Part shown: in pieces, positions 54,038 through 61,459 of the stretch
How positions within the stretch are numbered: position 1 is the first letter of the stretch
Layout of the letters: each line of letters starts with the position of its first letter
Source: Cupriavidus sp. YR651
Lineage (GTDB): Bacteria > Pseudomonadota > Gammaproteobacteria > Burkholderiales > Burkholderiaceae
Assembly (NCBI RefSeq): GCF_900101625.1
Contig: NZ_FMYZ01000002.1
Location: forward strand, 1 to 64,000
Direction: 5' to 3'
Length of the DNA: 64,000 bases
Made by a program: the position numbers and the translations under genes
Notes under the pieces: generated by a model
What the model was told of the DNA's origin: nothing
The model's database searches: none
What the model saw: only the letters and a program-made list of their open reading frames with translations

Positions 54038-54054
54038 TTGCAACAAAGTTGCGA
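54038..54054. promoter_or_regulatory. Candidate Zur operator before cobW1
   Basis: Inverted repeat TTGCAAC-AAA-GTTGCGA (one mismatched pair). The core TGCAAnnnAGTTGCG recurs before zur at 56989-57003. It lies 29 bases upstream of the cobW1 start. Confidence 0.55.
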
Positions 54055-54221: not shown

Positions 54222-54256
54222 GCACCAAAACAAAACGGCCCGGAATTCCGGGCCGT
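54222..54256 (-). terminator. Rho-independent terminator after dksA
   Basis: Perfect 22-base palindrome at 54235-54256 (arm ACGGCCCGGAA). On the minus strand it is followed by TTTTGTTTTGG, as expected for a terminator of dksA. It separates dksA from the cobW1 unit. Confidence 0.85.
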
Positions 54257-54283
54257 CTCGGTGCCGCCTGGGCGTGCGGGGAA

Positions 54284-54970
54284 TCAGTCCCCGAACAGCT
54301 TCTGGCGCAGTTCGCGGCGCTGCTGGGCTTCCAGCGACAGCGTGGCGGTCGGGCGGGCCAGCAGGCGGGGCACGCCGATCGGCTCGCCGGTTTCCTCGCA
54401 CCAGCCGTAGTCGCCGGATTCGATGCGCTGCAGCGACTGCTCGACCTTCTTCAGCAGCTTGCGCTCGCGGTCGCGCGTGCGCAGTTCCAGCGCGTGTTCT
54501 TCCTCGATCGTTGCGCGGTCGGCGGGATCGGGCACGATGACCGTTTCGCGCAGGTGTTCCGTGGTCTGATCGGCGTTCTTGAGAATTTCGTCGCGAAGCT
54601 GCTCAAGGCGATTCCTGAAGAAGGCAAGCTGCGCCTCGTTCATGTAATCCTTGTCGCTCATCTTCAGGATTTCAGCTTCAGTCAGAAGTTTGTTGCTGCT
54701 CATGGTTGCTGCTGATTCTCTTGTTGATGCGACCGGCGGCGTCTTCGTCCGCTCGGGTGCAGTGGCCGTCCGCTTGCGCGGCGCGGTCGTTTCACTCTGG
54801 CTGGCTGCAGTCTTGCTGCTTCGCGTGCCTCCCTTGGCCTCGCCCGCATCGGCGTGCGCCGTACTGCCGCGGGGAGCTGGCGCAGCCTTCACCGACTGCG
54901 CCTTGAGCGTCTCCGCCGCAGCGGTACCTGTCTTGCTGCGGCTTTCTTTCGTCTTTGTTGCGGCTGTCAT
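54284..54970 (-). CDS. dksA: DksA-type RNA polymerase-binding transcription factor, degenerate zinc finger
   Basis: The C-terminal 139 residues are DksA, which binds the RNA polymerase secondary channel with ppGpp. The coiled-coil tip DPADRA with its acidic residues is present. Only the first of four zinc-finger cysteines remains: Cys191 in YGWCEETGEPIG, with Thr194, Ser212 and Ala215 at the other positions. From ATG 54970 the protein has an 89-residue Lys/Ala/Thr-rich extension. A start at ATG 54703 would give a protein of ordinary DksA length, but AGAGAGG precedes 54970. It sits between two zinc-related units and ends at a strong terminator. Confidence 0.88.
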   Translation of the reverse strand: MTAATKTKESRSKTGTAAAETLKAQSVKAAPAPRGSTAHADAGEAKGGTRSSKTAASQSETTAPRKRTATAPERTKTPPVASTRESAATMSSNKLLTEAEILKMSDKDYMNEAQLAFFRNRLEQLRDEILKNADQTTEHLRETVIVPDPADRATIEEEHALELRTRDRERKLLKKVEQSLQRIESGDYGWCEETGEPIGVPRLLARPTATLSLEAQQRRELRQKLFGD

Positions 54971-55326
54971 GGGGACACCTCTCTCTACGCGTCGAAGAGT
55001 GACGGCGCTCTTGCCGAGGTACCCCAAGCGGAGGGCGGTCTCCGCACGAAGCACTGCGACCGCGCCTGCCGGCGGCCCGCCTCATGCTGACGACGACCGC
55101 CGCCCTGCAAATACGGACGGCGTCAGAAAAGGTGCGTCGCCCGCATCAAATCCGGCCTATTGTACTTGAACAAATTTTTCCGAGATATGGGAGAAAGCCG
55201 GACAACAGGCAGGAGTTTTCCCGGTACCCCTCTGGTAGGGAGGCGTGGGAGGTGTCCGGTGTCACCGCCCGACCCCGCAACAGGGGGCCGGAACGGTGCC
55301 CGCCGCACAAGCGGCGGAAGGGGCAC
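54971..55326. other. Intergenic region between cobW2 and dksA, 356 bases
   Basis: It must carry the dksA promoter. A TACAAT on the minus strand (about 55160-55165) in a locally AT-rich patch is a possible -10 box without a clear -35. No gene, repeat or terminator is seen. Confidence 0.4.
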
Positions 55327-56988: not shown

Positions 56989-57003
56989 TGCAATTCAGTT
57001 GCG
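56989..57003. promoter_or_regulatory. Candidate Zur operator before zur
   Basis: TGCAATTCAGTTGCG, sharing TGCAA, then AGTTGCG at the same spacing, with the element before cobW1 (54038-54054). It lies 23 bases upstream of the zur start. Confidence 0.5.
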
Positions 57004-60127: not shown

Positions 60128-61459
60128 ATGTCGCAAACCATGACCCCGTCGGAAATCGTTTCCGAACTCGACAAGCACATCATCGGCCAGAACAAGGCCA
60201 AGAAGGCCGTGGCCGTGGCGCTGCGCAACCGCTGGCGTCGCCAGCAGGTGGCCGACCCCCTGCGCCAGGAAATCACGCCCAAGAACATCCTGATGATCGG
60301 ACCGACCGGCGTCGGCAAGACGGAGATCGCCCGCCGGCTGGCCAAGCTGGCCGACGCGCCGTTCATCAAGATCGAGGCCACCAAGTTCACGGAAGTGGGC
60401 TACGTGGGCCGCGACGTCGACACGATCGTGCGCGACCTGGCTGAGATGGCCATCAAGCAGACGCGCGAATCCGAAATGAAGAAGGTGCGCACCAAGGCCG
60501 AGGAAGCCGCCGAGGACCGCCTGCTGGATGTGCTGCTGCCGCCGCCGCGCGACATCGGCTTTGCGCAGACCGAGGACAAGGATTCCAACACGCGCCAGGT
60601 CTTCCGCAAGAAGCTGCGCGAAGGCCAGCTCGACGACAAGGACATCGAGCTCGAAGTGGCCGCCGGCCTGCCGAGCATGGACATCATGGGTCCGCCGGGC
60701 ATGGAAGACATGACCGAGCAGATCCGCACGATGTTCGCCGGCCTGGGCCAGGGCAAGAAGCATCGCCGCAAGCTGAAGGTGAAGGAAGCCTTCAAGCTGC
60801 TGATCGACGAAGAGGCGGCCAAGCTCGTCAATGAAGAGGAGCTCAAGCACAAGGCCATCGCCAACGTGGAGCAGAACGGCATCGTGTTCCTGGACGAGAT
60901 CGACAAGATCGCCAGCCGCAGCGAGATCGGCGGTGGCGAGGTGTCGCGCCAGGGTGTGCAGCGCGACCTGCTGCCGCTGGTGGAAGGCACGACGGTGAGC
61001 ACCAAGTACGGCATGATCCGGACCGACCACATCCTGTTCATCGCGTCGGGCGCGTTCCATCTTTCCAAGCCGAGCGACCTGATTCCCGAACTGCAGGGCC
61101 GCTTCCCGATTCGCGTCGAGCTGGAATCGCTGTCCGTGCAGGACTTCGAGGCCATCCTCACGCAGACCGATGCGAGCCTGACCAAGCAATACCAGGCGCT
61201 GCTGAAGACGGAAGAGGTAGAGCTGCTGTTCGCGCCGGATGGTATCCGCCGGCTGGCGGAGATCGCGTTCTCGGTGAACGAGAAGGTTGAGAACATCGGC
61301 GCGCGCCGCCTGTACACGGTGATGGAACGTCTGCTGGAAGACCTGTCGTTCCACGCGACGAAGTCGTCGGGCGAGACGGTGACGATCGATGCCAAGTATG
61401 TCGACGAGCGGTTGGGCGATCTGGCCGGCAATGAGGATTTGTCGCGCTACGTTCTCTAA
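60128..61459 (+). CDS. hslU: ATP-dependent protease ATPase subunit HslU
   Basis: A 443-residue AAA+ unfoldase of the HslVU protease. Walker A is GPTGVGKTE (Lys64) and Walker B is VFLDEIDK (Asp256-Glu257). The intermediate domain lies at about 110-230. The GYVGRD pore loop (residues 90-95) and C-terminal sensor/tail (ending DLSRYVL) match HslU; the C-terminal residues insert into HslV. A strong terminator follows. Confidence 0.97.

Follow-up and report, generated by a model that had tools for sequence, protein, structure and literature searches.

A zinc-free DksA encoded between zur-cobW3 and cobW2 is probably the sole DksA of Cupriavidus sp. YR651 and might be made in two forms

DksA proteins enter the secondary channel of RNA polymerase through their coiled coil and act in synergy with ppGpp. 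The gene analysed here from Cupriavidus sp. YR651 encodes the ordinary, sole, zinc-free DksA of its group. We suggest that it is the only DksA of the cell, that it belongs to a class in which the four zinc ligands read C-T-x-A and in which zinc should not be needed for the folding of the globular domain, and that by analogy it would act as any ordinary DksA, with its coiled coil in the secondary channel and together with ppGpp. The gene would be expressed from a unit of its own and not as a Zur-controlled backup, a proposal that draws on a putative promoter and, at the protein level, on a relative. In addition, the constraint on its sequence suggests that an internal ATG at position 54703 may be used besides the upstream ATG at 54970, which would yield a long protein with an N-terminal tail and a short one without it. 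New in this study are the finding that the two DksA classes differ in the genes linked to them and the prediction of two forms.

The window, that is the whole stretch of 64,000 nucleotides, lies on contig 34 of an assembly of 6.96 Mb which is 99.99% complete. The dksA frame runs on the minus strand from 54970 to 54284 and is open for 228 amino acids; its coordinates, strand and frame were given correctly in an earlier note made from the sequence. The product scores 147.4 bits with TIGR02420 (curated cut-off 115.5), and both Pfam domains of DksA, DksA_N and zf-dskA_traR, are over their cut-offs, the coiled-coil domain DksA_N (PF21157) with 95.4 bits against 27. The residues D148, D151 and A153 of the acidic tip D-x-x-D-x-A of the coiled coil are invariant in 38 rows. 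According to a core search in named genomes the nearest named relatives of the locus are Cupriavidus.

The neighbouring genes are all on the minus strand, in the order zur (56966–56442), cobW3 (56400–55327), dksA, cobW2 (54009–52795), so that zur and cobW3 lie 5′ and cobW2 lies 3′ of dksA. This order confirms the zinc-related block in which the earlier note had placed the gene. The zur product is a Fur-family regulator (FUR profile over cut-off) which scores 33.9 with the Zur equivalog profile, below the cut-off of 167, and is named by gene order and the literature. CobW3 is a member of the COG0523 GTPase family with the Pfam domains cobW and CobW_C over cut-off, and CobW2 was assigned to the COG0523 family by profile search. 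The CxCC signature of COG0523 proteins is missing from CobW2 of the window and of 10 of the 12 named Cupriavidus loci; it is kept in the CobW2 of two Cupriavidus loci (L081, L082) and of both Ralstonia-like loci looked at. In C. necator A5-1 (L077) the distance between cobW3 and dksA exceeds that of the other Cupriavidus loci by ∼1.1 kb, which suggests an insertion.

The upstream region and the terminator of its own that had been ascribed to dksA were both found. The gap 5′ of the gene (54971–55326) measures 356 bases, and downstream a terminator-like hairpin of 13 pairs with a T run is located at 54231–54260 (minus strand). The terminator scan gave 3 such sites in the whole stretch, where shuffled sequences gave 1.5 (sd 1.1). 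By a simple criterion 9 of 12 named Cupriavidus loci have a comparable hairpin with a T run no more than 75 bases past the end of dksA. The upstream start codon is preceded by the Shine–Dalgarno sequence GAGAGAGG (54978–54985, minus strand), which in this form is present in the window and in 10 of the 12 named Cupriavidus loci, the remaining two having the weaker GAGAAAGG. A scan with the sigma-70 consensus found no promoter upstream of dksA; about 190 bases 5′ of the gene there is a largely conserved, promoter-like element TTGTTCAAGTACAATA (55158–55173, minus strand), which may serve as its promoter.

Four-cysteine, zinc-binding DksA proteins have the pattern C-x2-C-x17-C-x2-C. In the window DksA the pattern is C-x2-T-x17-S-x2-A, and translation as well as alignment agree with the earlier reading of the former zinc site as Cys191, Thr194, Ser212 and Ala215 (54326–54400, minus strand). 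The loss of the ligands supports the zinc-independent fold which the earlier note had expected. For its group such a form is nothing unusual: the 80 best of 506 named relatives are all C-T-S/T-A (79 CTSA, 1 CTTA), a set which, being the best 80 kept by the core search, leans to close kin. The ligands read in the window and in 18 further loci of the genus, some from genomes met twice, are likewise all C-T-S-A. Elsewhere in the order, among hand-picked genomes, some have CCCC, some have CTxA and a few have both.

In a tree of 100 rows the CTxA (68) and CCCC (32) proteins are separated by one branch with a support of 100/100, the tree being unrooted, built on few columns and with a bootstrap that had not settled. 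The split is kept when the sequence from the zinc motif onward is removed (SH-aLRT 95 with a quick method on 80 columns). Thus, the window DksA belongs to the zinc-free class both by its ligand loss and by a grouping apart from CCCC that extends outside the ligand region. On the CTxA side of the tree there are also DksA2-like rows of Pseudomonas and rows from further classes of the phylum, their taxa judged by resemblance; 13 rows from other classes, picked among the best-scoring, are zinc-free as well, and one row (L234) reads CTCA. Three TraR-like rows (L177–L179), initially counted as CCCC, were left out of the tree and of the tail counts below.

The AlphaFold model of the protein is weak as a whole because of the tail (mean pLDDT 59.7, pTM 0.40), and from residue 101 on its blocks have a pLDDT of 67–87, except for residues 201–210 between the ligand pairs (mean 52). 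Its best matches in the PDB are the zinc-free DksA2 of Pseudomonas aeruginosa (4IJJ, E 9.6e-7, target TM 0.67), first by a narrow margin, and the zinc-bound DksA of E. coli (1TJL, E 1.1e-6, target TM 0.60), which are about equal. By sequence the core scores higher with E. coli DksA (119.5 bits) than with DksA2 (108.7 bits). Since the fold comparison is near level and the sequence comparison favours E. coli DksA, it is the loss of the ligands and the characterised relatives, and not the model, that speak for zinc independence. Among these relatives, P. aeruginosa DksA2 has a zinc-free globular domain too and has the GDYGWC-ETGEPIG and RPTATL stretches in common with our protein, but it contains two cysteines where the window DksA has one; in P. 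aeruginosa DksA1 is reported to be replaceable by DksA2 (PMC9213440). RSP2654 of Rhodobacter sphaeroides and SMc00469 of Sinorhizobium meliloti, which are from another class of the phylum, are described as functioning like DksA without a C4 finger (PMC9239242). By sequence and by analogy to these proteins, the globular domain of the window DksA is expected to fold without zinc.

The earlier note had proposed to look for a second, four-cysteine DksA in the genome. Protein and profile searches of the own genome found none; apart from this gene, the protein search with DksA returned a single weak match (E 0.13). There is a second protein with PF01258 (zf-dskA_traR) in this genome (at C16 33717–33824; L001 1489–1956), which has four cysteines. 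We rejected it as a DksA, as it is a short TraR/DksA-like protein which scores 42.5 with TIGR02420 against the cut-off of 115.5 and is devoid of DksA_N; its gene adjoins one whose translation resembles phosphoribosyl-pyrophosphate synthase. The same picture emerges for the genus. Each of the 60 genomes searched, drawn from a larger group, has exactly one TIGR02420 match over the cut-off, and all 60 have a matching PF01258 hit of ∼48 bits, which by a count by eye is the sole PF01258 hit in 32 of them. Among 25 further zf-dskA_traR loci of the genus (L042–L066), the 22 with a score (all except L043, L055 and L056) include none that is DksA-like, with at most 51 bits against at least 114 for the DksA rows. 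We consider it quite probable that the window gene is the sole, zinc-free DksA and not a backup.

The two classes also differ in their gene neighbourhood. Counted by one test for all sets within the fetched stretch, a COG0523 or Zur homologue lies near dksA in 68 of 80 named CTxA loci, in 9 of 16 CTxA loci across the order and in 0 of 24 CCCC loci (Fisher p 4e-5 for 9/16 against 0/24, both sets consisting of hand-chosen rows). The 12 named CTxA loci without such a neighbour are from Herbaspirillum (10) and Vallotia (2). Six genomes were found with both classes; there the CTxA copy is next to zur and/or COG0523 in five, the CCCC copy in none of the six. These counts indicate that linkage to zur and COG0523 goes with the zinc-free class, and the place of dksA among these genes in the window is the linkage typical of this class. 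The gene of HslU (60128–61459 in the window) was also seen near 44 of the 80 named and 4 of the 16 other zinc-free dksA genes and near none of the 24 four-cysteine ones.

It is conceivable that this linkage is a relic, and that the gene is a former backup which became the main gene. An ancestor within the order would have had both classes with the zinc-free gene inside a Zur block, and here the four-cysteine gene would have been lost while the zinc-free one left Zur control. Such a history, which is compatible with our explanation, accounts for the arrangement in the six genomes with both classes, and we give it nearly an even chance. Nevertheless, the trees are unrooted and thus do not give its direction. 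The COG0523 neighbours in the six genomes differ as well: one (G134) has 57% identity to cobW3, three have pieces of 32–48% identity to CobW2 or CobW3, one genome has zur alone and one has neither. Furthermore, the 13 rows from other classes mentioned above, which were picked among the best-scoring, are also zinc-free.

In front of the DksA core the long frame has an N-terminal tail of 89 residues (54704–54970, minus strand). The length noted earlier is correct, but instead of Lys/Ala-rich the tail is better described as rich in Ala, Thr and Ser (A 21, T 17, S 10, K 9) with a net positive charge (K+R 16, D+E 7). In 13 Cupriavidus sequences the pooled pairwise dN/dS is 0.40 for the tail and 0.03 for the core, the sequences being related and the pairs not independent. 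Changes in the tail are in excess at the third codon position (1308 vs 648 and 707), and the only indel in this set is in-frame. Judged from these sequences, the tail is more than chance and is under constraint at the protein level. Residues 1–78 and 80–92 have a pLDDT below 50 in the AlphaFold model, and we predict that the extension is a translated, disordered and net cationic tail. A second stretch with almost zero synonymous change in the 13 sequences is located at 54791–54835 (tail residues 46–60).

Tails are found on other DksA proteins too. Those of the Ralstonia-like loci have stretches in common with the Cupriavidus tail, and further tails occur in Pandoraea and in Herminiimonas, where they comprise ∼200 residues, roughly half of them Lys or Ala. 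By a tail criterion which is arbitrary and misses some rows shown as tailed (e.g. L118, L119, L130), a Lys/Ala-rich tail is present in 31 of 80 named CTxA, 27 of 88 other CTxA and 2 of 32 CCCC proteins, in 0 of 160 wrong-frame controls and in none of 28 Burkholderia-group loci. The Herminiimonas tails resemble the cationic, disordered, Lys/Ala-rich segments of the histone H1-like proteins AlgP and PhaF; however, these are unrelated proteins with C-terminal KPAA repeats (PMC9239181), and the tail in Cupriavidus contains less Lys. Among the literature entries listed, nothing beyond Xanthomonas concerned a DksA tail or two forms of DksA. For DksA of X. euvesicatoria a long N-terminus is reported on the basis of peptides and start-codon mutants, together with a smaller form (PMC5559785). 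That protein is listed with 256 against 147 amino acids and starts with GTG, and its smaller form is called processed and not internally initiated.

The core of 139 amino acids begins with the internal ATG at 54703 (54284–54703, minus strand). In the alignment this ATG coincides with the start codon of relatives without a tail, such as the DksA of Paraburkholderia. All 13 Cupriavidus, all 4 Ralstonia-like and all 3 Pandoraea sequences retain this Met; of 12 tailed Oxalobacteraceae none has a Met at the junction, and among the tailed rows outside these sets 4 of 20 have a Met in the junction stretch. Around ATG 54703 there is a block of near-zero synonymous change (54674–54733, minus strand), which forms the middle of a broader region (alignment codons 80–114). 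The 8 scored columns before the ATG have a synonymous difference of 0 (p 0.0002) and the 20 after it one of 0.090 (p 0.003), compared with 0.223 for the remaining core, in permutations that treat columns as exchangeable and on rows that are related. A thinned set of 11 gave 0 before and 0.073 after the ATG. In 28 Burkholderia-group genes without a tail a like dip is located at the true start (0.104 vs 0.292, p 0.0002), and it is also seen in the Ralstonia-like (0.058 vs 0.218, p 0.009, 4 rows) and Pandoraea sets (0 vs 0.191, p 0.002, 3 rows), whereas the 12 tailed Oxalobacteraceae without that ATG have none (0.441 vs 0.422, p 0.61, 9 scored columns). The constraint around 54703 looks like the trace expected from a start codon in use. 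The ATG is preceded by a weak and distant Shine–Dalgarno-like AAGAGAA, and a search of Rfam gave no match.

Constraint of this kind is not unique to start sites, since there is no synonymous suppression at the upstream start 54970 (0.187, p 0.31) and the tail has dips elsewhere, a moderate one in its rest and middle (0.136, p 0.01–0.015) and another stretch without synonymous change at alignment codons 43–59. Nevertheless, ATG 54703 still looks like a used start, and thus two proteins may arise from the gene, a long one with the tail and a short one without it. The doubt raised earlier, that translation might start at 54703, is therefore justified in part: this ATG appears to be used, but the upstream start has support as well from the dN/dS of the tail and the conserved Shine–Dalgarno sequence. 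Tentatively, at somewhat less than an even chance, we propose that one dksA gene gives rise to both forms. No less tentative is the wider proposal that Cupriavidus, the Ralstonia-like group and Pandoraea have a long DksA, held on nucleic acid or polyphosphate by its cationic, disordered tail, besides a short canonical DksA made from the retained ancestral start, the ratio of both tuning the stringent response.

Alternatively, only the long protein might be made, and the constraint around 54703 would reflect another RNA or DNA element, for example, an internal promoter or an sRNA site. Synonymous change is reduced in other parts of the tail too, and despite the negative Rfam search an undescribed element is conceivable; on the other hand, the dip sits where relatives without a tail have their true start, and tailed rows that lack the Met do not show it. 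We give this possibility, too, somewhat less than an even chance. Conversely, it is unlikely that only the short protein is made and that the upstream frame is a mere leader: the start-like constraint at 54703 and its alignment with the start of tail-less relatives would fit, but the protein-level constraint on the tail, the conserved Shine–Dalgarno sequence before 54970, the tailed Oxalobacteraceae devoid of a junction Met and the long N-terminus reported for Xanthomonas DksA all argue against it.

The earlier note had set the gene, encoded between two putative Zur units, beside the Zur-controlled backups of other bacteria. The motif CGCAACTNNNTTGCA, which we infer to be a Zur box, occurs exactly at 54039–54053 upstream of cobW2 (CGCAACTTTGTTGCA) and at 56989–57003 upstream of zur-cobW3 (CGCAACTGAATTGCA), both on the minus strand, and in each of the 12 named Cupriavidus loci it precedes cobW2 and recurs on the side of zur, with at most 1 mismatch. 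Neither the window nor any of these 12 loci has a match, at up to 3 mismatches, in the 450 bases 5′ of dksA. Of the four Ralstonia-like loci three contain the box, with one mismatch, at a large distance 5′ of dksA towards zur, the fourth (L128) being a short contig. None of the four has a match better than 2 mismatches before cobW2, so that the evidence for a cobW2 box is confined to Cupriavidus. Within the window there are 3 hits at up to 2 mismatches, fewer than the 5.76 expected, and two of them are the exact ones before zur and cobW2. In the whole genome the 14-base pattern gave 59 hits at up to 1 mismatch against 48 for the reversed control, and thus it marks no regulon by itself and was rejected as a regulon marker. 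Only 4 genome-wide hits are exact, the two described here and two in or at genes without an evident link to zinc.

In C. metallidurans dksA likewise lies between cobW2 and cobW3, and DksA is reported as not regulated in a mutant in which CobW2 and CobW3 were raised (PMC13192273). On the contrary, a table in a review lists dksA1 in the Zur regulon of this species (PMC6103462). The best-known backup, P. aeruginosa DksA2, is a second copy beside the four-cysteine DksA1 and is reported to be made only in zinc starvation (PMC9213440), whereas the window DksA is the sole copy and has a tail. Although the ligand loss and the ETGEPIG-type region common to DksA2, the location among zur and COG0523 genes and the entry in the review would suit a zinc-starvation backup of this type, we regard it as very improbable, as no four-cysteine DksA that could be backed up was found, for which reason a backup paralogue was rejected, as the putative Zur box of the neighbours is absent 5′ of dksA, and as DksA is reported as unregulated in C. 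metallidurans.

Our results correct a misreading to which this locus lends itself: in this genus a zinc-free DksA next to zur is the normal form and the only DksA, and it does not look like a backup for zinc shortage. By inference, the stringent response in these bacteria should not depend on the supply of zinc to DksA. In addition, the analysis points out that Lys/Ala-rich tails are recurrent on a core regulator of transcription. If two forms are indeed made, the ratio of long to short DksA would tune the stringent response in bacteria whose only DksA is zinc-free.
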